Shown here piece by piece: positions 18,170-57,279 of a stretch of DNA of 64,000 nucleotides. Source of the DNA: Salinicoccus carnicancri Crm. Its GTDB lineage: Bacteria > Bacillota > Bacilli > Staphylococcales > Salinicoccaceae. The stretch covers positions 124,001 to 188,000 of the forward strand of contig NZ_ANAM01000006.1 of assembly GCF_000330705.1 (NCBI RefSeq), read 5' to 3'. The notes beneath the pieces are model-generated. The model ran no database searches and was not told the origin of the DNA. It was given only the letters and a program-made list of their open reading frames with translations. The stretch's first letter is position 1. Every line of letters begins with the position of its first letter. Position numbers and translations under genes: made by a program.

Positions 18170-18191
18170 GTTATAGAAAAGTGAATAGAAA

Positions 18192-18320
18192 ATGTCTTTA
18201 AACGGAGTCCCGTGAGGCTCCAAAGACATGATATGGACGGATGCATCCTGCCCGCGGGCGGGACTGCAGGTTTTTTGGGATACGTGTATACTCATGTCTT
18301 TGGACATGAGTATTTTTTTA
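18192..18320 (+). promoter_or_regulatory. PyrR-dependent transcription attenuator
   Basis: The leader folds into three mutually exclusive hairpins. The anti-antiterminator pairs ATGTCTTT (18192-18199) with AAAGACAT (18222-18229) and shows the PyrR-binding loop AGTCCCGTGAGGCT (18206-18219). The terminator pairs ATACTCATGTC (18288-18298) with GACATGAGTAT (18303-18313), followed by a run of T. The antiterminator pairs CAAAGACATG (18221-18230) perfectly with CATGTCTTTG (18293-18302). UMP-bound PyrR should stabilise the first hairpin and cause termination. It is the only such leader visible in the operon. Confidence 0.95.
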
Positions 18321-18349
18321 TACAAAAATTCGGATAGGAGACAGGGAAA

Positions 18350-26637: not shown

Positions 26638-29019
<2,382 letters not shown>

Positions 29020-29023
<4 letters not shown>

Positions 29024-29628
29024 AGGGAAAAATAGCGGAAATACTTCTGGATATAAATGCGGTGGAGCTGAGACCGGACGATCCATTTACATGGTCGAGC
29101 GGAATCGTTTCGCCGATATACTGTGATAACAGGAAAGTCATCGGCGATGTCCATGCACGCGCAGAAATTGCGGATGCATTCACGTCACTGATCGAGCGGC
29201 ATGCACCGGACGTGGAAGTCATTGCAGGGACTTCCACTGCAGGCATTCCGCATGCTGCCTATATCAGCGAGCGTATGAATCTGCCGATGTGTTATGTGCG
29301 CGGATCCAGGAAAAAGCACGGCAAAGGCAATCAGATTGAAGGAGCGGATGTATCCGGCCGCAAAGTTGTTGTCATCGAAGATCTGATTTCAACCGGAGGC
29401 TCAAGCCTCGAGGCGGTATGGGCGCTCAGGGAGAACGGCGCTGAAGTGATGAGTGTATTCGCCATCTTCACCTACGGCATCAAAAAGGCGGCCGATGCAT
29501 TCGAAGCGGCTGAGGTGTCATTCCATACGCTGAGCGGCCTCGATGCACTTCTTGACATCAGCATGAAAAAAGGTACGCTGGATGAAGGGAATAAGCAGGC
29601 CGTCATCGATTTCAAGAACAGCCTGTGA
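29020..29628 (+). CDS. pyrE: Orotate phosphoribosyltransferase
   Basis: A 202-residue enzyme that joins orotate to PRPP. The PRPP motif is VVVIEDLISTGGSSLEA (about residues 114-130), and the flexible-loop region RKKHGKGNQIEG is at about 98-109. It is the last gene of the pyr operon. The long hairpin at 29641-29709 follows 12 bases after its stop. Confidence 0.97.
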
Positions 29629-29640
29629 ATTAAAAATAAG

Positions 29641-29709
29641 AATCTATAGCACAAGACCCGCACGTCAGTCTCCCCGGGAGCATGATGTGCGGGTCTTGTG
29701 CTATAGATT
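29641..29709. terminator. 23-bp perfect hairpin between convergent pyrE and pgcA (bidirectional terminator)
   Basis: Two 23-base arms (29641-29663 and 29687-29709) are exact reverse complements around a 23-base loop. The loop itself contains a near-palindrome CTCCCCGGGAG. Reading leftward, the stem is followed by a T-rich CTTATTTTTAATTC, which suits a terminator for pgcA. Reading rightward it is followed only by a short T stretch. The stem is unusually long for a simple terminator. Confidence 0.75.
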
Positions 29710-29752: not shown

Positions 29753-31396
29753 CTAAACACCAAAAATCATATCATTGATGATCTTGCCCTCCTGTTCGAT
29801 CTGTGTGCTGTCCAGTGATACATATAGCTTTATTTTGGGCTCAGTACCCGAAGGTCTGAGGGCAATCCAGCCGTCTTTGAAATGGAGTTTGATGACATTG
29901 GCTTCGGGGAGATCGATTTCTTCACTGTTTCCTGAGCTATCGGTACGTCTGCCGAGGAGGAAATCCTCGACCAGGATGACTTCCCGCCTGCCGATCTCTT
30001 TGGGCGTATTACTTCTGAAATTGCTCATGATCTCGTCGATGTATTCACGGCCTTCTGTTCCCTCGAATGTATGGCTGTACAGGACTTCCATAATACGTCC
30101 ATGTTCCTCGTATATGTCCTCCAGCTGATCGACGAGCGTCCGCCCCTCATTCCTGAGTCCGGCTGCCATGGATATGATGTAGGGCACGACCTGGATGGCG
30201 TCTTTATCCCTGACGAATGGTTCGAGCAGGTAGCCGTAGCTCTCCTCATAGCCGAGCACAAACTGCTTATCAGACTCATTTTCCAGAGACTTTATCCGTT
30301 CGCCGATATATTTGAAGCCGGTCAGCACTTCGATCATTTCCCCACCTGCCGCTTCTGTAATTTTACGGCCGAGATCGCTCGTAACGATGGATTTTATGAC
30401 CACAGGCGTTTTACCTCTCTTTTCCTTCATGCGCTGATCCAGCAATAGAATCCCGAGCTGGTTGCCATTCAGATGCACATACCTGTCTTCATGCCTGACG
30501 ATCACGCCCATCCTGTCTGCATCGGGGTCTGTGGCAATCAGCAGATCTGCACCGGTCTCACGCCCGAGCACCTTCGAGTATTCGAAGGATTCCGGGCTCT
30601 CCGGGTTCGGGGAAGTGGTGGTCGGGAAGTCGCCATCAGGCACACACTGTTCAGTTACAAGTGAGTAGTCATTGAATCCGAGAGAATCAAGCAGTTCGGG
30701 AACGATGGGAACGCTTGTTCCATGAAGGCTTGAGAACACGATGGAAAGCTCCGATTCAGGGATGCTGCCGATGAAGCTGGTGACATGATTCCTGTAGCTG
30801 TCCACCACTTCACCTGATACATACTGGATGATCCCTTCCCCAAGACCGTCTTCGAACGGTTGGCTTCCGATAGAGAATACATCCTCGATCGCATTGATCT
30901 TTTCGCTGAGGGCGGCAGCCGGTGCATCGATCAGTTGCGCGCCGTCCGGCCCGTATACTTTTATGCCATTGTATTCGGGCGGATTATGGCTCGCTGTGAT
31001 CATTACTCCGATGGAAGCGCCGTAACTGCGTATGAAAAACGAAAGTTCAGGTGTCGAAGTGTACTGCTTTGTCACCTTGACTGAAATGCCGTTGTGTGCA
31101 AGGACTGAAGCCATGGTCTGTGAAAATTCGATGGAGAAATGTCTTGTATCATAACCGATTACAACAACCGGGTCAGATTCATCTTTCAGTGAATGTGCAA
31201 GACCAAGTGCCACCTTTTCGACAGTGTAGCGGTTCAGGCGGTTTGGCCCAAGCCCGATTTTCCCTCTGATGCCTGCCGTCCCAAAAGACAGTGTGCCGCC
31301 AAATGATTCCTCCTTGTCAGCCGTACTCAGTGCCTCATAACTTTTCCTGTCTATGAAACTTCCGCTGATGTGGTCTTCCCATTGTTTTCTATCCAT
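29753..31396 (-). CDS. pgcA: Alpha-phosphoglucomutase
   Basis: A 547-residue phosphohexomutase of the PgcA/YhxB type, interconverting glucose 1-phosphate and glucose 6-phosphate. The phosphoserine loop is MITASHNPPEYNG (Ser about 136), the metal loop is ATDPDADRMG (about 287-296), and the sugar-phosphate loop is ALRPSGTEPKIKLY (about 510-523). It feeds glucose 1-phosphate to GlgC/D and to UDP-glucose synthesis. It is downstream of pulA, with an 8-base overlap, and divergent from glgBCDA, which supports a role in glycogen turnover. Confidence 0.94.
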   Translation of the reverse strand: MDRKQWEDHISGSFIDRKSYEALSTADKEESFGGTLSFGTAGIRGKIGLGPNRLNRYTVEKVALGLAHSLKDESDPVVVIGYDTRHFSIEFSQTMASVLAHNGISVKVTKQYTSTPELSFFIRSYGASIGVMITASHNPPEYNGIKVYGPDGAQLIDAPAAALSEKINAIEDVFSIGSQPFEDGLGEGIIQYVSGEVVDSYRNHVTSFIGSIPESELSIVFSSLHGTSVPIVPELLDSLGFNDYSLVTEQCVPDGDFPTTTSPNPESPESFEYSKVLGRETGADLLIATDPDADRMGVIVRHEDRYVHLNGNQLGILLLDQRMKEKRGKTPVVIKSIVTSDLGRKITEAAGGEMIEVLTGFKYIGERIKSLENESDKQFVLGYEESYGYLLEPFVRDKDAIQVVPYIISMAAGLRNEGRTLVDQLEDIYEEHGRIMEVLYSHTFEGTEGREYIDEIMSNFRSNTPKEIGRREVILVEDFLLGRRTDSSGNSEEIDLPEANVIKLHFKDGWIALRPSGTEPKIKLYVSLDSTQIEQEGKIINDMIFGV

Positions 31397-33485
31397 TTAA
31401 TCCACGCTCCTCAATGTTTATAGATTCACTGCCTGACCTTGCAAGGATTACGACTTCGTAACCTTTTATATAAAAACTGTTTCTATAGATGGCTTTATCC
31501 GTATTCCGCTGATTGGAAAGCCTGATGCCGAATGCCTCATCACTTCCCAAGGAGAGTTCCGCCGAAGTCTCCGCCGGATTGATCAGAATCGTGAAATCAC
31601 TGTCCCTGTATCTGATTCTGGCCCCGAATACCCGGGGCATGCGGTCGAATGAAAGGAGAGTCACCGCTTTCTCCACGGATTCCCGGTCCTTCAGTCTGAA
31701 TACCGGTTCAGATTTTCTGAATGCAATGAGGGATTTCACAAATTCAATATTATCCTGATATCTGGCACGCCGGTTCCAGTCCATCCTGTTCAGCATGTCG
31801 CTCAGATTGTAAGTATTGCCGTGACCGAATTTGGTCCGGAAGAATTCCTGGCCGGCATGCAGAAACGGTGTGCCGAATGACAGAAGCACGAGCGCCGTGG
31901 CAAGCTGATGCTGGCTTTCAAGCACATACTGGCGTTTGCCGGAGGAATACCTCAGGCGGTCATATAATGTGTGGTTGTCATGGACTTCCACATAATTGAT
32001 GCTCATATCTGCGGAAAAATCTTCAAATGAGCCGGTGAACAATTTGCGGATTGCATCTATCCCTGCACCTTCACCATTCACATACCCTTTTGCAGCAAGC
32101 TCAAAATTAGCGCCTTTGACTGCATCCCTGAAATGATCGTTGAAAAAATGTATGGATGCGGGACGGTCCAAGGAATCTGGCAGTGTCTTTTTGGATTGAT
32201 CGAGCGCGGTCGGCAGATCCCATCCTTCACCGAGCAGAAATATTTCACGGTCCTGACGCCGGGCGATTTCTGCGACACCCTGCATCGTTTCGATATCGAG
32301 CGCGCCCATCAGGTCGAACCTGAAGCCGTCCACCCTGTAATGATCGAGCCAGAATGAGATGGTATCGTGGATGAATCGTCTTGCCATCAGCTTTTCAGAA
32401 GCAAAATCATTGCCCACGCCTGTGCCGTTTGACAGGGAAAGGTCGGCATTATGCCTGAAATAGTAGCCCGGGACAAGCTTTTCAAAACTGGAGTTTTCCA
32501 CTTCATAAACGTGGTTGAGCACCACATCGAGGATGACTTTCATGCCGTTTTCATGCACAGCTTTCACCAGTTCCTGCAATTCGAGCACCCGGATCAGCGG
32601 GTTGTTCGGATCGGTGGCATAACTGCCTTCAGGGACCATGAAGAACTTCGGGTCGTATCCCCAGTTATAGCTTTTCGAAGCATTGAGTTCATCGACGGTG
32701 GGAAAGTCATTGACAGGCATGAACTCGACATGGGTGATACCGAGTTCCTTCAAATAGTTGAGGCCGCTCGAAAGGCCGTGTTCTGTGAAGGCATATTCAG
32801 CCATCCCGGAATACTTCCCCCGGTGTTCTTTTTTCACCCCGCTGTTTTGGTGGACGGTCATATCCCGTATGTGTATTTCGTAGATGATGGCCCCATCATT
32901 TTGGGCATCAGGGACGGGATGTTTCCTGAAGCCCGGGTTAAGCCGTTCGAAATCAATTACCATGGCTTCCCGCGAGTTCGCTGATACACCTTTGACGTAG
33001 GGGTCGATGACGAAATGCGTCACATCATTATGGCTGACTTCGTAGTGGTAGTGACTGCCGTGGCAGTCTGAATGGACTGTAATTTCAAAATAGCCGCCCC
33101 TTTTTTCCATTTCCTTCACTTCGTTATCAAGCAGCAGACGGCAGATGACTGCGGTCGGCGCAAATACTCTGAACACCGTATGCGTTCCCGTGTAGGTTAC
33201 GCCCATTTCTTCGGCGGTCGAATACTTCATATCGAAATCGATGGAATGGATGTACGTTCCGTTAAGCAGCGGGTACATTCTCCCTTCATATTCTATATGG
33301 GAAAATTGATCGAGGCCGATATCCTCTTTATATTTCAGGCGGACCTGTCCGTCTGAAACCACTTCGCTTTCCCGCTCCAACAGCGCCCCGTCCTGCAGCA
33401 GATTTATATTCCCATAGTTCAATTCATGACCATCAAAAGGTCTGACTGTAATTTCATCAGATGAGTCAAGGTAGGCTCTGAGCAT
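31389..33485 (-). CDS. pulA: Type I pullulanase (glycogen/starch debranching, GH13)
   Basis: A 698-residue GH13 enzyme that hydrolyses alpha-1,6 branches. A CBM48-like N-terminal region (about residues 95-200) precedes the barrel. The type I pullulanase motif YNWGYDP is present, the nucleophile is in DGFRFDLMGALD (about 385-396), the acid/base in FLLGEGWD (about 417-424) and the third acid in VEVHDNHTLYDR (about 497-508). No signal peptide is visible, so it is probably intracellular, like B. subtilis AmyX (about 718 residues). Overlap with pgcA indicates one leftward unit. Confidence 0.93.
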   Translation of the reverse strand: MLRAYLDSSDEITVRPFDGHELNYGNINLLQDGALLERESEVVSDGQVRLKYKEDIGLDQFSHIEYEGRMYPLLNGTYIHSIDFDMKYSTAEEMGVTYTGTHTVFRVFAPTAVICRLLLDNEVKEMEKRGGYFEITVHSDCHGSHYHYEVSHNDVTHFVIDPYVKGVSANSREAMVIDFERLNPGFRKHPVPDAQNDGAIIYEIHIRDMTVHQNSGVKKEHRGKYSGMAEYAFTEHGLSSGLNYLKELGITHVEFMPVNDFPTVDELNASKSYNWGYDPKFFMVPEGSYATDPNNPLIRVLELQELVKAVHENGMKVILDVVLNHVYEVENSSFEKLVPGYYFRHNADLSLSNGTGVGNDFASEKLMARRFIHDTISFWLDHYRVDGFRFDLMGALDIETMQGVAEIARRQDREIFLLGEGWDLPTALDQSKKTLPDSLDRPASIHFFNDHFRDAVKGANFELAAKGYVNGEGAGIDAIRKLFTGSFEDFSADMSINYVEVHDNHTLYDRLRYSSGKRQYVLESQHQLATALVLLSFGTPFLHAGQEFFRTKFGHGNTYNLSDMLNRMDWNRRARYQDNIEFVKSLIAFRKSEPVFRLKDRESVEKAVTLLSFDRMPRVFGARIRYRDSDFTILINPAETSAELSLGSDEAFGIRLSNQRNTDKAIYRNSFYIKGYEVVILARSGSESINIEERGLNG

Positions 33486-33653
33486 AGATTCCCCACATCC
33501 CTTTTCAGGAGAGTATTTTAAACGGAATAATAAAAAATATTAATTTTTTGAAAATTTTGATAGAATTATATTAATACAGGTTTTTTCTTTCTGAACAGTA
33601 GTATACTTACGAATAAGGGTATAACTACAGTATAACCGAAAGGGGGGATTTTT
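33486..33653. promoter_or_regulatory. Divergent regulatory region between pulA and glgB
   Basis: This 168-base AT-rich gap must drive pulA-pgcA leftward and glgBCDA rightward. Several A/T-rich -10-like boxes (for example TATACT at 33602-33607 and TATAAC at 33619-33624) are present, but no pair with a convincing -35 at correct spacing was found. No CcpA cre site could be recognised by eye. Confidence 0.4.
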
Positions 33654-35582
33654 TTGAGCATAGATGACTTTGATCTCGACAAATATCTTTTCCATCAGGG
33701 GAATCATTACCATGCCTATGAATTTATGGGCGCCCATCCTGAGCCGGAAGGGAAAATACGATTCATCACATGGGCGCCGAAAGCGGATCATGTGCAGCTC
33801 GCGTGTGATGTGAATGACTACACCGGCAGGGGCATGGACTTTGAACGGCTGGGAGATAACGGCCTGTGGATATTCAGGAGCGGGGAATTGTCCATCGGTG
33901 ACACTTACAAATACAGGATCCACTTTGACGGAACTTCCCATCTCAAGTCAGACCCTTACGGCTTCTATCATGAAATTCGGCCGGCTACCGCAAGCATCAT
34001 CCATGCGGATGAATTCGAATTTACAGATGATGCCTGGCTCAACCGGCGCAGCGGCTCGAATGTCTACCGGTCTCCGATAAGCATATATGAAATGCATATG
34101 GGAACGTGGATGAAGCATGAGGTCACCGAAACAGAAGGACTTACAGATGATGAACTGACCGACCTTGCCCATTATTCCTACAGGGAAACGGCAGAGGAGC
34201 TGATTCCTTATCTCAGGGAGATGGGATACACCCACGTGGAGTTTCTGCCGCTTACAGAATACCCTTTTGACCTGTCATGGGGATACCAGGTGACGGGTTA
34301 CTTCTCTGCAACAAGCCGCTACGGTGACCCTGAAGGGCTGAAATTCCTGATCAATGAACTGCACCGGGCGGAGATAGGAGTGATCATGGATTACGTCCCC
34401 GCCCATTTTTGCAGGGATGACCATGGCCTGCGTCTGTTTGACGGCACACCAACCTACGAACATCCGGATCCGCGCATTGCGGATAAAAGACAGTGGGGGA
34501 CGCTGACATTCGACTACGGCCGCCCGGAAATCCAGTCATTCCTCATCTCGGCTGCGATGTTCTGGTTCAGGGAATTCCACGTGGACGGTCTCCGTATAGA
34601 TGCTGTGCACAGCATGATCGACCTGAACTTTGAAAATCATGAACCGCACGAGAAAATCTACAACAGTGACGGTACAGAGGTTAACAGAGAAGGTGTGAGT
34701 TTCCTGAAAAAGCTCAATACGGCGGTCTTCGCTTACGATGAATCACTGCTCATGATGGCGGAGGACTCTTCGGATACACCAATGGTAACCTCGCCTGTGG
34801 ATGCCGGAGGTCTGGGATTCAACTTCAAATGGGACCTGGGCTGGATGCATGACAGGCTCTCCTATATGGACAAGGATTTCAGCGACAGGGATTATTTCCA
34901 CAACCGTATGACGTTCTCTCTTGCCTATAAGTACCATGAAAACTATGTACTGCCATTGTCACATGATGAGGTGGTCCATGGAAAAAAATCCATTGTGGGG
35001 AAGATGTACGGGGACCAGTGGCAGCAGTTTGCCCAGGCACGTCTCCTGTACGGCAGCCAGGTGTCGGAGCCGGGCAAGCAGCTTTTATTCATGGGACAGG
35101 AAATCGGAATGTATCATGAATGGAAGGACAAAGAGCAGGTCGATTGGCATCTGCTGGACTATCCCTATCACCGGACACTGAAAAGATATGTGCAGTCACT
35201 GAACGGGCTCTACAGGGCTAATCCCGAATTCTACAGGGCAGATTATGATCCGGACGGGTTCAGGTGGCTCGTTGTCGATGACAAAGTACATTCTGTCTTC
35301 AGCTACGTGAGACGGTCGGGTGCGGAATTCAAAGTCTGCATACTGAATTACAGGCCGGTTGCTTACCATGATTTTAAAATTCCAGTACCGTCACCGGGCA
35401 CGTACAGGGAAGTATTCAACAGTGACAGTACGGAATTTTCCGGTTCCGGTGTAACGAATCCCGGCCGGCATTTCAGCTTCGATGAACACCATATCAGGGA
35501 AAATCAGCATATAAAGGTTACGGTGGCACCTCTGGCGTTCCAAGTATTCGAAATAGAAAATAATCCAGATGGAGGTTTTTAA
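33654..35582 (+). CDS. glgB: 1,4-alpha-glucan branching enzyme GlgB
   Basis: A 642-residue GH13 enzyme that creates alpha-1,6 branches in glycogen. A CBM48 domain (about residues 20-105, with YEFMGAHPE) precedes the catalytic barrel; catalytic acids are in [11 protein letters not shown] (about 310-320), LMMAEDSSD (about 365-373) and [11 protein letters not shown] (about 434-444). Length is normal for B. subtilis-type GlgB. The start is TTG, with GGGGGGA ending 6 bases upstream. It is the first gene of the rightward glgBCDA unit. Confidence 0.95.
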
Positions 35583-35583
35583 T

Positions 35584-36741
35584 ATGACGTCCAAAGTTGT
35601 AGCCATGCTTTTGGCCGGAGGAAAGGGAACAAGGCTTGGGGAATTGACAAAAGACCTTGCAAAACCGGCAGTCCCGTTCGGCGGCAAGTACAGGATCATC
35701 GACTTTACGATGAGCAACCTGGCCAACTCGGGTATTTCGACGGTCGGAGTGGTGGTGCAGTACTCCCCGCTCATGCTCAATAAACACATCGGTATCGGCA
35801 AGCCGTGGGGACTGGAGAGGCAGACCGGTGGTGTCAGTGTACTTGCACCCTTCTCTGATAAGGGGGGAGGTTCATGGTTTTCCGGGACAGCGGATGCCAT
35901 CGTCAAAAATTTGAAGTATGTCGAACAGTTCGAACCGGATGAGCTGCTGATACTGAGCGGTGATCATGTATATCAGATGGATTATACGAAAATGCTTGAC
36001 TTCCACAGGTCCAGGGGAGCGGATGCGACAATTTCGGTCATTGAAGTTCCGATGGAGGAAGCGGACCGTTTTGGCATTCTGAATACCAATGAAGACTTCA
36101 GCATCTATGAATTTGATGAGAAGCCCGAAAATCCGAAAAACAATCTTGCTTCCATGGGGATCTATATTTTCAGATGGGATATTATAAGGTCATATCTTCT
36201 CGAGGATGAAAAGGATGAATTGAGCGATCACGATTTCGGCAAGAATATCATACCGAAAATGCTTTTGGATGAGAGGCGTTTATTCGCCTACAGATTCGTC
36301 GGCTACTGGAAGGATGTCGGAACTGTTACCAGTTACTGGGAAGCGAACATGGATCTCCTCAAGGAGGATTTCCAGACGCTGCTCAGGTCCAATTCATGGG
36401 CGACTTATCCGAATGAAGAGAACAGGCCGCCGGAATATATAGGAGAGACTGCTGAAGTCACCAATTCGCTGATTTCCTCCGGTTCCTTCATAGAGGGCAG
36501 AATCGAAGATTCAGTCCTGTTCACAGGCGTCAGGACATGCGGGGGCACGGAAGTGAAATCTTCCATCATACTGCCTGATGCCGTGATTGGCAATAATGTC
36601 ATACTGGAGCGGGTCATTGTGACCACCGGACTCAGGGTGCCGGCGGGGACCGTGGTGCGGGCGGCTGGTGATGACCCCGTTGTATTGAGTGAAGGCACTT
36701 TGGGAGACTATCTGCATAAGGGGGGCGGAAAAAATGAATAG
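35584..36741 (+). CDS. glgC: Glucose-1-phosphate adenylyltransferase, catalytic subunit GlgC
   Basis: A 385-residue ADP-glucose pyrophosphorylase, the committed step of glycogen synthesis. The nucleotide loop [15 protein letters not shown] (about residues 8-22), the catalytic aspartate in [11 protein letters not shown] (about 123-133) and FDEKPENPK (about 178-186, sugar phosphate lysine) are intact. A left-handed beta-helix follows at about 285-380. ATG 35584 has GGAGG 6 bases upstream, better than an in-frame ATG at 35569 inside glgB. It overlaps glgD by 8 bases. Confidence 0.95.
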
Positions 36742-37840
36742 AGATGTCCTTGGACTGGTGAATCTGCAAGCGGAACAGGATGACCTGGATGAGCTGACAT
36801 ATTTCAGAAGCGGAGGCTCTGTGCCGTTCATGGGAAGATATCGACTGATTGATTTCGCATTGACAAACATGTCTCACTCCGGCATAAAGACTGTCGGTGT
36901 ATTCGCCGGCAATAAATTCAGATCGCTGCTCGATCATCTGAGCCGCAAGGAGGACTTCGGTTTCGAGGGCAGGAACTCGAGGATATTCATCCTGCCCCCG
37001 GATTGGAACGATCCTTCGGACATTTCAGAAGGGGACCTGAGGCACTTCCATAACCACTGGGACCTGTTCGACCGTTTCAAAGGCGACCACGTCATGGTTA
37101 CGGGCTCGCAGTTCATTACGAACACCAATTGCAGGGGGGCAATCCGGTATCATAAAGAGCAGGATAATGATATCACCTTCATCGCAGAGAGGCGGCCGCA
37201 GGAAGACATCCCCGGCGCACCGGCCCTGAAAATCCTGACGGAGGGAGACAGTCTTACCGGTTTCAACAATAGCAGTGATCACAATCATATCTATACGGGT
37301 ATTTTCATAATCAAAAAGCAGGTACTGCTCGACATAGTGCGCTACTGCATCGACAACTACAAAACGAATCTGTTCCACAACGGCATCCGTGAGCAGCTGG
37401 ACCGCTTCCGTACCGGCTATTTTGACATTGAAGGGTCGACCTATTATTTCCATAATGTCCAGGCATATTTCAAAAACAGCATGTCGCTGCTCGTCAAGGA
37501 GAGGTACCAGGATTTCTTCCATGGCGAAAACCTTGTAAAAACGAAGATCAGTACAAACCCGCCGGCGTTGTACAAGAAGGGCAGTGATGTAAAATCTTCA
37601 ATTGTCGCCAACGGTGTAGTGATTGAAGGCAAGGTGGAATCCTCGGTCATTTCCAGAAATGCGGCGATTGGAGAAGGGGCAACCGTCAAAAACTCAGTGG
37701 TATTTGCGAATTGTTCGATCGGCCGGGGGGCATACCTGGAAAATGTAATATTGGATAAAGGCGTGACTATTACAGAAGACCGCAGACTCATTGGTTCAGA
37801 AGATAAACCGTACATCGTTGCGAAGCGGTCCACGATTTAA
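36734..37840 (+). CDS. glgD: Glucose-1-phosphate adenylyltransferase, GlgD subunit
   Basis: A 368-residue homologue of GlgC that forms heterotetramers with it in Bacillus and Geobacillus. The fold-specific [18 protein letters not shown] segment (about residues 33-50) and the C-terminal beta-helix (about 275-365) align with GlgC. The N-terminal glycine-rich GGxGTRL loop is replaced by [16 protein letters not shown], so it is expected to be poorly active and to act as a modulatory subunit. ATG 36734 follows AAGGGGGGCGG. Confidence 0.92.
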
Positions 37841-37860
37841 AAGAAGGAGGCGGCAGTTAC

Positions 37861-39267
37861 ATGAAACATGTGCTTTTTGCAGCGAGTGAATGCACTCCGT
37901 TTATAAAGTCCGGGGGGCTGGCGGATGTCGCCGGCAGTCTGCCCCAGGCACTGGCAGAACAGGGGATGGGAGTTTCTGTCATACTGCCGCTCTACAAGGA
38001 GATCATAGAGTCCGGTTACCGTCCTGATATGGAGGAAGTCATTGTCTTCAGCACCCCGGTAGGCTGGCGCAACCAGTATACGCGAATACTGAAGCTTAAT
38101 GACCGGGGTGTCGACTACTATTTTGTCGACAATGAATACTATTTCAACCGTGACGGTCTGTACGGCTATGTCGATGACGGCGAGCGATTCATCTTTTTCT
38201 CCAGTGCAATCATAGAGTTCATGTACCGCACAGAAGAACATTTCGACGTGCTGCACTGCCATGACTGGCAGACCGGTGCCGCTGTAGCGATCGGCAGCAT
38301 CAAACGGCCGCATCCTGGGATGAAGACGGTCTATACGATCCATAACATAAAATATCAGGGATGGTTCGAACATTCAGGATTCGGGGAAATGCTCGATCTC
38401 GGCATGGAACATTTTGCAGGATTTGAATGGCGCGGGATGATGAACATGATGAAGGCGGCAATCTATCATGCGGATATTATAACGACGGTTTCGCAAACAT
38501 ATGTGGATGAAATTCTTACCCCCTTTTTCGGAGAAGGGCTGGAAACGGTGCTTGCCGACAGGCGCGGCGATCTGTACGGCATCCTCAACGGTCTGGACAC
38601 AAAGGGCTATGATCCGCTCTCGGATCCTGCCATCAGCTCGCACTTCAGCTCTTCACGCGCCGGCAAACTGGAGAATAAGACAGCCATGCAGGGAGCGCTT
38701 GGATTCAAAGTGGATGAACGCATACCGATGTATGGCATCGTCACCCGGCTTGTTGCCCAAAAAGGGCTGGACCTCATCAGACACATCATGCATGGATTTC
38801 TTGAATCAGACGTCCAGCTTGTGGTCCTCGGCTCCGGTGATACTGAATATGAAGAGTATTTCAGGTCACTTGAAGCGCGTTTCCCCGGGAAAGTCCACGT
38901 TAAAGTCGGTTTCAGTGAACCATTCGCCAGGAGAATCTATGCCTCGGGTGACTTCTTCATCATGCCGAGCCTTTTTGAACCATGCGGTCTCGGCCAGCTG
39001 ATTGCGATCCGCTATTTGAGTGCGCCGATCGTAAGGGAGACCGGGGGGCTGAAGGACACAGTCATACCGTATGATGAATATGACCATACAGGGAACGGCC
39101 TGTCATTTGCCAATTACAATGCGCATGAATTGCTGGACAGGCTCGAGTACAGCCTGAGATTGTACAGGATGCCGGAACATATGGATGCACTGTGCAGGAA
39201 CATGGCGGCTTCCGACTACAGTTGGGCGGCTTCCGCACAGCACTATGTGGAATTGTATGATAAATGA
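37861..39267 (+). CDS. glgA: Glycogen synthase GlgA (GT5)
   Basis: A 468-residue retaining glucosyltransferase that extends alpha-1,4 glucan from ADP-glucose. The N-terminal ADP-glucose motif is KSGGLADVAGSLPQAL (about residues 19-34), and the C-terminal catalytic region carries VTRLVAQKGLDLI (about 296-308) and PSLFEPCGLGQL (about 368-379). Length is close to the family norm of about 480. In B. subtilis a glycogen phosphorylase gene glgP follows; here there is none, and the next gene faces the other way. Confidence 0.95.
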   Translation: MKHVLFAASECTPFIKSGGLADVAGSLPQALAEQGMGVSVILPLYKEIIESGYRPDMEEVIVFSTPVGWRNQYTRILKLNDRGVDYYFVDNEYYFNRDGLYGYVDDGERFIFFSSAIIEFMYRTEEHFDVLHCHDWQTGAAVAIGSIKRPHPGMKTVYTIHNIKYQGWFEHSGFGEMLDLGMEHFAGFEWRGMMNMMKAAIYHADIITTVSQTYVDEILTPFFGEGLETVLADRRGDLYGILNGLDTKGYDPLSDPAISSHFSSSRAGKLENKTAMQGALGFKVDERIPMYGIVTRLVAQKGLDLIRHIMHGFLESDVQLVVLGSGDTEYEEYFRSLEARFPGKVHVKVGFSEPFARRIYASGDFFIMPSLFEPCGLGQLIAIRYLSAPIVRETGGLKDTVIPYDEYDHTGNGLSFANYNAHELLDRLEYSLRLYRMPEHMDALCRNMAASDYSWAASAQHYVELYDK

Positions 39268-39320: not shown

Positions 39321-39356
39321 AAAATTAAAAAATACGGACCGTAATCGGCCCGTATA
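39321..39356 (-). terminator. Terminator downstream of rqcH (leftward)
   Basis: Read on the minus strand, ATACGGGCC pairs with GGTCCGTAT around GATTAC-type loop sequence (plus coordinates 39332-39355) and is followed by TTTTTTAATTTT. It closes rqcH transcription. A plus-strand terminator for glgA was not obvious in this gap. Confidence 0.8.
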
Positions 39357-39369
39357 TCCATGATGGAGT

Positions 39370-41067
39370 TCATTTCACTGCCATGCTGTCGACTTTTTTC
39401 TTCTCGGGGGTCACGAACACAGTCTGCTGGTCTGTATATGTGACAAATCCGGGTTTGGCCCCGCTGATCTTGTGTACATGCCTGATTTCTGTGAAATCGA
39501 CGGGTACGGATTCGGATTCCTTCGCCTTTGAGAAGTAGGAGGCAAGCATGGCGGCCTCCAGTATGTCCTGCTCTTCGATCTGACCAGGTGGATGGGTAAG
39601 GACGACATGTGAGCCGGGAATGTCTTTTGTATGGAACCACAGGTGGTTGTTCTGTGCTTTCCTCGATGTCAGATAATCGTTCTGCTTGTTGTTCTTGCCC
39701 ACCAGCACGTCCAGACCATTGGTTGTCCGGAACTGGTGCAGCTGGATATGACGGTTCTTCTTTTTCTTCCCTCTGTTCTTTCTCGCCTTGATGATTCCCT
39801 GTTCATACAGTTCGTCACGGATTTCACCGACCTCCTCTTCTGTTGTGATCTCTTCCATCTGATGGAGCAGGTTCGAGAAGTACTCCATATCCATACGCGC
39901 CTGGTCGAGCTGCTTTGCCGCCTCGCTTTCACGCTTTTTCAGCTTGTTGTACCTGCTGTAGTATTTCTGGGCATTGTCACTCGGTGAAATATCCGGGTCG
40001 AGTGGTATGGTGGCTTCTCCGCCTGTGTAATAGTCGAGAACCGTAACGGAATCCTGGTGTGGCTGCACCTGATGCATGTAGGCGGTGAGCAGTTCCCCGT
40101 ATTTCTGATGTACATCTTTCTCAGCCGCTTCCCCCAGGTCTCCCTTCAGTTTTTCTATCTTCCGCTCCGTGCGCTCATATTCCCGGCTGATGACATTCAG
40201 GTAATCATTCGCCTTCTGCTTGATCAGTGCAGTCTGGTAGCGGTTGTGATAGTAATGGTCCGCGAGCTCAGACAGCGTACCGAAAGTTTCAGAGGGTTCC
40301 CCGAGATGCCCAAGGGGTGTATGATAAAATGTCTCGCTGCCGCCCCCCTCATAAAGGGAGGGGCGGATTTCCCCGGCCTTGGCGAGTGTCTCCCTGACTG
40401 CCGGCACGATATTCCGTATGTTGAAGTGCCCGGCGTTGTACTCGATTTCCCGGACGAACAACGGACTGAATCCCTCAACGGCGGCAAGGATCTGCCTGCT
40501 CACCTTGCCGCTGTTGAAATCAATACGGGAAGGCAGCTTTTCTATTTCCTCCGTCCTCGGATTGAGCTTTTCCGCCGTCGGGGGTGCCTTGTATGCGAAC
40601 CCCGGCATGATCGTGCGGGCATTGTTGTTTGGTGTCAGGTGCTTGATGCCTTCCAATATATTATATTGTTCATCGGTGATGATGATGTTCGAGTGCCTGC
40701 CCATGATCTCGAGGATGAGTATGCGCCCGACGTCATCCCCGATCTCATTGCGGGACTGGATATGGAATTCCACCCGCCGGTCGTTGCCGATCTGCCGGAT
40801 GCTTTTGATGATGCCGCCTTCGATATGTTTTCTCGCGACGCGCAGGAACATCGGCGGGTCGAACGGGAATTCATACTTCTGATGCGTCAGATGGAAACGT
40901 GCATACATCGGGTGTGCACTGATCAGGAGATTATGATTTGCCCGCTGCGAGCGGATTTTGAGTATAAGGGATGTATCATCCATCTGCTGGATCTTATTGA
41001 TCTTGCCTTTTTCCAATATTGAAAGTTCGTCGGTGAGTGCATGGACAAAGTTGCCGTCAAATGCCAT
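39370..41067 (-). CDS. rqcH: Ribosome quality control factor RqcH (NEMF/NFACT family, FbpA-like)
   Basis: A 565-residue NFACT protein. It binds obstructed 50S subunits and directs addition of alanine tails to stalled chains, marking them for degradation; older annotation calls it a fibronectin-binding protein. The order is NFACT-N (about residues 1-180, starting MAFDGNFVHALTDEL), a helix-hairpin-helix region, a long coiled coil (about 280-430, with paired heptads) and NFACT-R with LWFHTKDIPGSHVVL (about 475-489). It is transcribed against its neighbours and divergent from gmk, as in staphylococci. Confidence 0.93.
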   Translation of the reverse strand: MAFDGNFVHALTDELSILEKGKINKIQQMDDTSLILKIRSQRANHNLLISAHPMYARFHLTHQKYEFPFDPPMFLRVARKHIEGGIIKSIRQIGNDRRVEFHIQSRNEIGDDVGRILILEIMGRHSNIIITDEQYNILEGIKHLTPNNNARTIMPGFAYKAPPTAEKLNPRTEEIEKLPSRIDFNSGKVSRQILAAVEGFSPLFVREIEYNAGHFNIRNIVPAVRETLAKAGEIRPSLYEGGGSETFYHTPLGHLGEPSETFGTLSELADHYYHNRYQTALIKQKANDYLNVISREYERTERKIEKLKGDLGEAAEKDVHQKYGELLTAYMHQVQPHQDSVTVLDYYTGGEATIPLDPDISPSDNAQKYYSRYNKLKKRESEAAKQLDQARMDMEYFSNLLHQMEEITTEEEVGEIRDELYEQGIIKARKNRGKKKKNRHIQLHQFRTTNGLDVLVGKNNKQNDYLTSRKAQNNHLWFHTKDIPGSHVVLTHPPGQIEEQDILEAAMLASYFSKAKESESVPVDFTEIRHVHKISGAKPGFVTYTDQQTVFVTPEKKKVDSMAVK

Positions 41068-56910: not shown

Positions 56911-57279
56911 ATGACATTGGAAATAAGGAACGAGATGGGCAGTATAGACATTGCAATCGATGTAATCGCAAACATTGCCGGCAACGCCGTAGTGGAGAGC
57001 TATGGAGTGGTGGGAATGGCGTCAAAGCACCAGGTGCGCGACGGTTTTGCAGAGCTGCTCGGTAAAGAAAATTATGCACGCGGTGTAATCATTGAAAATA
57101 ACGAAGGCAGTCTGGATGTGGACCTGTATATCATAGTCGGATACGGCATCAAAATATCCGAGGTGGCAGCGAATGTCCAGTCCACTGTTAAATATAATCT
57201 TGAAAAGACACTCGGACTGAATATCAATGCTGTGAATATTTATGTGCAGGGAGTCAGGATCATCAATTCTGAGGATTGA
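56911..57279 (+). CDS. Asp23/Gls24-family envelope stress protein (YloU)
   Basis: A 122-residue Asp23 (DUF322) protein. IDIAIDVIANIAGNAVVESYG and VDLYIIVGYGIKISEVAANVQ are the conserved strands and helix of the family (seen at residues about 11-30 and 72-91). In B. subtilis the syntenic gene is yloU, upstream of the fatty acid kinase gene yloV; Asp23 relatives are membrane-associated proteins linked to cell-wall stress. ATG 56911 follows GGGGGGAAC; a GTG at 56893 lies before that site and is not favoured. Confidence 0.9.
   Translation: MTLEIRNEMGSIDIAIDVIANIAGNAVVESYGVVGMASKHQVRDGFAELLGKENYARGVIIENNEGSLDVDLYIIVGYGIKISEVAANVQSTVKYNLEKTLGLNINAVNIYVQGVRIINSED

Follow-up and report, generated by a model that had tools for sequence, protein, structure and literature searches.

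A glycogen gene block between pyrE and rqcH in Salinicoccus and its probable repeated loss among the relatives of Staphylococcus

The block and its flanks

Six intact genes, pgcA, pulA, glgB, glgC, glgD and glgA, lie between pyrE and rqcH in the window analysed here, a 64-kb stretch of the Salinicoccus carnicancri Crm genome (2.67 Mb). The left flank, pyrE (28996..29628, plus strand; TIGR00336, 137.5 bits, cut-off 106.8), is likelier to start at ATG 29020 than at GTG 28996, and the right flank, rqcH (39370..41067, minus strand), is recognised by the Pfam domain NFACT_N (442 bits). The block itself consists of two divergent units, pgcA-pulA and glgB-glgC-glgD-glgA, separated by an intergenic region of 168 bp (33486..33653). 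Genes pgcA and pulA overlap by 8 bp, as do glgC and glgD, with a gap of 1 bp between glgB and glgC and of 20 bp between glgD and glgA.

On the minus strand, pulA (31389..33485) encodes a debranching enzyme of the type I pullulanase family (TIGR02104, 636 bits, cut-off 504.5) with the YNWGY motif and three acidic motifs. Its neighbour pgcA (29753..31396, minus strand), a predicted alpha-phosphoglucomutase, has all four PGM_PMM Pfam domains and the TASHNP and DPDADR motifs. No NCBIfam model reached its cut-off for PgcA (the best scored 199 of 439), and the name therefore rests on fold family and context. On the plus strand lie the branching enzyme gene glgB (33654..35582; NF003811, 773 bits, cut-off 741), which starts at TTG 33654 preceded by AAAGGGGGG; glgC (35584..36741; NF003670, 551 bits, cut-off 470), for the catalytic subunit of ADP-glucose pyrophosphorylase; glgD (36734..37840; TIGR02092, 308 bits, cut-off 236.6), for the non-catalytic subunit; and glgA (37861..39267; TIGR02095, 499 bits, cut-off 328.45), for an ADP-glucose-type glycogen synthase. 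The starts of glgC and glgD were taken as ATG 35584 and ATG 36734, within longer listed ORFs. In PgcA, PulA, GlgB, GlgC and GlgA the motifs taken as catalytic are unbroken. GlgD has neither the nucleotide loop nor the catalytic Asp stretch, as would be expected of a non-catalytic partner subunit.

These genes make up the classical GlgC-GlgA-GlgB pathway in its Bacillota form, in which GlgC stands beside a GlgD without catalytic residues, and the genome also holds a debranching enzyme (pulA, in the block) and a phosphorylase (glgP, with malQ, elsewhere). The block is an ordinary glycogen cluster of a known kind, intact and inherited. PgcA would convert glucose 6-phosphate to glucose 1-phosphate, from which GlgC/GlgD would make ADP-glucose; GlgA would then extend a linear glucan that GlgB would branch into glycogen, and PulA would debranch it during breakdown. 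Gene names, orientation and location given by the first-pass annotation agree with the ORFs, families and motifs (for pgcA, with Pfam only), and its full route from glucose 6-phosphate to branched glycogen is what these families and motifs predict. The enzyme activities, and with them the accumulation of glycogen in Salinicoccus, are predictions from sequence.

Between the converging pyrE and pgcA there is an inverted repeat (29641..29709) with 34-nt arms, 91% complementary, and 1 nt between them, one of just two in the window at the search settings used and probably a two-way terminator. A terminator-like hairpin with a 10-pair stem followed by a T run lies on the minus strand between the converging glgA and rqcH (39332..39355); a terminator scan of the region gave 5 sites, below the shuffle mean of 11.7. 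The marks of a horizontal island are missing from the block. Its G+C content (0.49-0.52) is close to that of both flanks (0.52), no direct repeat links one junction to the other, no tRNA was found in the 64-kb window, and there is no room for an integrase gene, since the six genes fill the interval and the largest gap is the 168 bp before glgB. Elsewhere in the window, a PyrR binding site (RF00515, 59.4 bits; 18191-18321) lies upstream of pyr genes.

Distribution across the order and the pyrE-rqcH site

The comparison set comprised 157 genomes of the order, including 33 of the Salinicoccus family. Its genera are numbered: g1 is Salinicoccus (with Salinicoccus cyprini CT19, itself a block carrier, as G040), g11 includes Macrococcus bovicus (G058), g13 is Macrococcus sp. 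DPC7161 (G072), and g14 (84 genomes), g12 and g10 I take to be Staphylococcus, Mammaliicoccus and Macrococcoides, respectively. At E 1e-20, GlgA was found in 39 of the 157 genomes: in 11 of 12 from g1, the single g2 genome, all nine of g10, all six of g11, the single g13 genome, and 11 of 15 from a distant family, f3. At the same threshold it was found in none of g3, g4, g5, g6 and g7, in 0 of 8 g12 genomes and in 0 of 84 from g14, which bears out the earlier claim that Staphylococcus is without glycogen synthesis. The f3 enzymes have 40-44% identity and are encoded on another contig than pyrE or more than 100 kb from it in the 10 of 11 genomes for which both positions were listed. PulA at E 1e-40 picks out exactly the 28 GlgA carriers outside f3, and GlgP occurs in 40 of the 157 genomes. 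Within the Salinicoccus family the distribution is all-or-none: 12 of the 33 genomes have all four of GlgA, PulA, GlgP and MalQ, and at the thresholds used none of these was found in the remaining 21. No relative of PgcA was detected at E 1e-60 in any of the 14 genomes of g3, g5 and g6, so these genera appear to have lost PgcA-type phosphoglucomutase altogether.

Wherever the six genes occur as a block they have one order and orientation, across five genera (g1, g2, g10, g11 and g13) and two families. The block is contiguous in 27 of the 28 carriers and is interrupted by contig ends, with fitting pieces, in the other (G053). It is also at the same place: pyrE lies less than 1 kb from pgcA in 27 of 28 carriers, and at about 14 kb in G044. 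On the other side, rqcH follows glgA within 0.2 kb in all 11 carriers from g1, and at 0.9 kb, partly masked, in g2; it comes after glgP in all six g11 genomes, and is more distant in g13 and in g10 where the contig is common. Two pyrE-linked Macrococcus loci (L088 and L089) equal that of Salinicoccus in the six genes, their order and their site, but differ in having glgP directly after glgA. In the extra sequence of about 14 kb in G044 (L024:1-12326), Pfam recognises two GNAT acetyltransferases and, below its cut-off, a phospholipase A2-like ORF, beside further ORFs.

The first-pass annotation called pyrE and rqcH close neighbours in Staphylococcus. They are near each other but not adjacent: in the 12 g14 intervals read, out of 84, the distance between them is 1.3-11.5 kb. 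One of these intervals, in G093 (L069:3141-13458), has ten ORFs and resembles a capsule or exopolysaccharide cluster; three of its ORFs were checked by Pfam, as a ParA-like ATPase, Polysacc_synt_2 and Epimerase_2. In G037, a g6 genome, simple-repeat ORFs of the SYSYDKIRFLKLSSISD type occupy part of the interval (L044:4016-4630).

Age of the block and its losses

The block seems to be as old as its flanks. In a GlgBCDA tree of 58 rows (a quick tree without bootstrap), the carriers of the two families form sister clades with an SH-aLRT of 100, and halophilic Bacillaceae stand next to them, four with pulA divergent from glgBCDAP. Within g1 the branching order of this tree is that of the tree of RqcH and PyrE, in which one such branch is unsupported. 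The ratio of between-family to within-genus distance is 1.88 for pyrE and 2.38 for rqcH, and those of the block are alike (pgcA 1.88, pulA 2.31, glgB 2.02, glgC 1.75, glgD 1.83, glgA 2.08), which suggests that block and flanks were of equal age at the family split. Transfer between the families after that split, with the conserved flanks as the substrate for recombination, would also give an identical site and order, but the sister clades of the Glg tree and the match of block distances to those of pyrE and rqcH make it very improbable, and it is possible only if it happened very soon after the split.

Direct traces of loss lie at the site itself. In G038, a genome of the Salinicoccus genus without GlgA, GlgP or MalQ, the order is rqcH, then 31 residues that match the end of PulA and have a stop of their own, then pgcA and pyrE, and the positions are as a deletion predicts. 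The match covers PulA residues 654-684 at 58% identity just before pgcA and scores 43.5 bits; none of 500 single-base shuffles exceeded 21.9. This pulA tail is a deletion scar. In all six g4 genomes pgcA is what is left of the block at the site, 23-33 bp from rqcH and with unrelated ORFs between it and pyrE, and its product clusters with the PgcA encoded in the g1 and g2 blocks (100/99).

Other intervals hold no such traces. Relics were absent at E 0.1 from those of 8 of 8 g12 genomes, 6 of g14, 2 of 3 of g5, 2 of 2 of g6, 1 of 9 of g3 and the one f2 genome, and at E 0.01 from six further g14 intervals (12 of 84 altogether). The remaining g3 intervals are short, for example 42 and 180 bp, and little could fit in them. 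For the losses among these lineages, the evidence is that of the trees and of the common site.

The first-pass annotation had described the block as an insertion between its two flanks in this lineage. A recent gain of this kind would account for the lack of glgA in the closely related g3 and g4, and plain parsimony on the RqcH and PyrE tree, on which one outgroup genome of f2 also lacks the block, requires 4 changes. This is fewer than one gain followed by five losses, so the count of changes alone does not favour loss, and it is site, order, age and scar, rather than the count, that carry the case for loss. These stand firmly against a recent gain: the identical block occupies the identical site in Macrococcus, it co-diverges with its flanks, and the scar in G038 and the pgcA relics in g4 remain where it has gone; the ordinary G+C and the missing junction repeats also speak against it. 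I regard a recent gain as extremely unlikely. The block would instead be ancestral, vertically inherited and then repeatedly lost, a reading to which I give a probability of about 0.9.

On the reading of ancestry and loss, the last ancestor shared by the Salinicoccus and the Macrococcus/Staphylococcus families would already have carried the block between pyrE and rqcH, and any insertion at the site would have occurred once and earlier, in or before that ancestor. Its age relative to the family split follows from the shared site and order, the co-divergence, the sister clades, the scar and the pgcA of g4, and the same evidence points to about five losses, the number that one early presence requires on the RqcH and PyrE tree: one in the line of g14 and g12, one in that of g5 and g6, one in g3, one in g4, where pgcA stayed behind, and one in G038 of the Salinicoccus genus, which still has pgcA and the pulA tail. 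The RqcH and PyrE tree places g2 (82/93) and g3 (77/80) by weak branches, and if these are redrawn so that g3 joins g5 and g6 the number would be four. The direction of change is thus the reverse of that first proposed, although the contrast with Staphylococcus was right. The first-pass annotation had itself noted that the same block at this site in all relatives would mean loss in Staphylococcus; to the letter this does not hold, as many genera are without the block, but its sense does.

A supposed gain hence becomes a well-supported case, in the order to which Staphylococcus belongs, of a whole pathway lost repeatedly from a single site, one loss having left a scar. It provides natural pairs with and without the block within one genus, in which to study the role of glycogen in cocci that live in salt or on skin. 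One idea is that glycogen loss marks a parasitic life, and this case gives a test of it. Among the listed titles and abstract openings on glycogen, glg genes or comparative genomics of Macrococcus, Salinicoccus and Staphylococcaceae, a description of the locus was not found, which is weak evidence of absence. In the passages searched, PMC6008420 names glycogen 5 times, each within a list of acid tests, and lacks 'glg', and PMC6686919 lacks 'staphylococc'.

Degradation, related clusters and control

No glgP follows glgA directly in Salinicoccus, where rqcH stands instead. The notion that the organism has no phosphorylase was ruled out by a malQ-glgP pair outside the window, on another contig than the block (G000:C1:318910-322712; L197:5851-9716). 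This unlinked pair probably serves glycogen degradation, and would be the most likely agent of phosphorolysis. Its GlgP is 78-84% identical to those of four other genomes of the Salinicoccus genus and of a different lineage from the Macrococcus block GlgP (42-44% identity); among 200 genomes sampled from the class at E 1e-150, none beyond the genus has a GlgP more than 49% identical. In the GlgP tree the Macrococcus enzyme groups with the block enzymes of Bacillaceae, and that of Salinicoccus stands apart on a long branch flagged by the program. It is probably a replacement, as its separate grouping suggests, though the branch is long.

Pullulanase, MalQ and GlgP also work in maltodextrin use, and on that ground the cluster might be taken as one for breaking down alpha-glucans from outside rather than for storage. 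Against this, GlgA, GlgB and GlgC are biosynthetic, intact and accompanied by the GlgD partner, and within the family MalQ and GlgP are confined to the 12 of 33 genomes that have GlgA; I consider such a role highly unlikely.

As described in PMC4282360, the glgBCDAP-amy-pgm operon of Lactobacillus acidophilus is co-transcribed in one direction with glgP inside it. The Salinicoccus block resembles this operon in the order glgB-C-D-A and in including an amylase or debranching-type gene and a phosphoglucomutase gene, but differs in the divergence of pulA-pgcA from glgBCDA, in having glgP at another locus and in its place between pyrE and rqcH. In the glgBCDAP loci of Salipaludibacillus sp. CUR1 (L094) and Aquibacillus kalidii (L091), pulA likewise diverges from glgB-C-D-A; these halophilic Bacillaceae rank among the closest outside relatives on the GlgBCDA tree. 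Unlike Salinicoccus, both have glgP after glgA, and neither 21-kb locus has a match to pgcA or pyrE. In Alteribacillus (L093), pgcA occupies the place of pulA.

Upstream of glgB there is a candidate sigma-B-like promoter on the plus strand, GTAGTA-13-GGGTAT (33598..33622), with the -10 at 33617-33622. The GGGTAT resembles a sigma-B -10 box, and the -35 half is poor, matching the sigma-B consensus at just 3 of 6 positions. About 37 bases before the glgB start, GGGTAT is exact in 8 of the 11 g1 carriers and has at most one mismatch in all 11; it is exact in all six g11 genomes, at -42 to -52, and lies further upstream in 3 of 7 g10 genomes examined. It was not found upstream of glgB in g2 or g13, and no exact copy was found there in five Bacillaceae. 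The base-shuffled window region contains GGGTAT in 4.4% of trials, and the counts are weaker than they look because the sequences are related. A SigB-type factor is present in all 12 genomes tested. The promoter is a lead, and stationary-phase or stress control of the block by sigma-B may follow from it. Two consensus patterns for CcpA-type sites gave two hits in the window, at 56960 and 47983, both outside the block, and a sigma-70 scan gave 18 sites against 15.3 expected, no excess over chance.

Taken together, I would tentatively propose, as somewhat doubtful, that the whole glycogen economy, including the unlinked, non-orthologous malQ-glgP, is all-or-none in the family, disappeared through about five deletions at one ancestral site in the two families, with pgcA spared in two lineages, and in these non-sporing cocci has its glgB promoter under sigma-B. 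Two PgcA copies of different lineages are present in one g14 genome (G110; L231 and L232) and one g12 genome (G069; L236 and L237), and the 16 PgcA rows of g14 and g12 that were examined fall into two clades.
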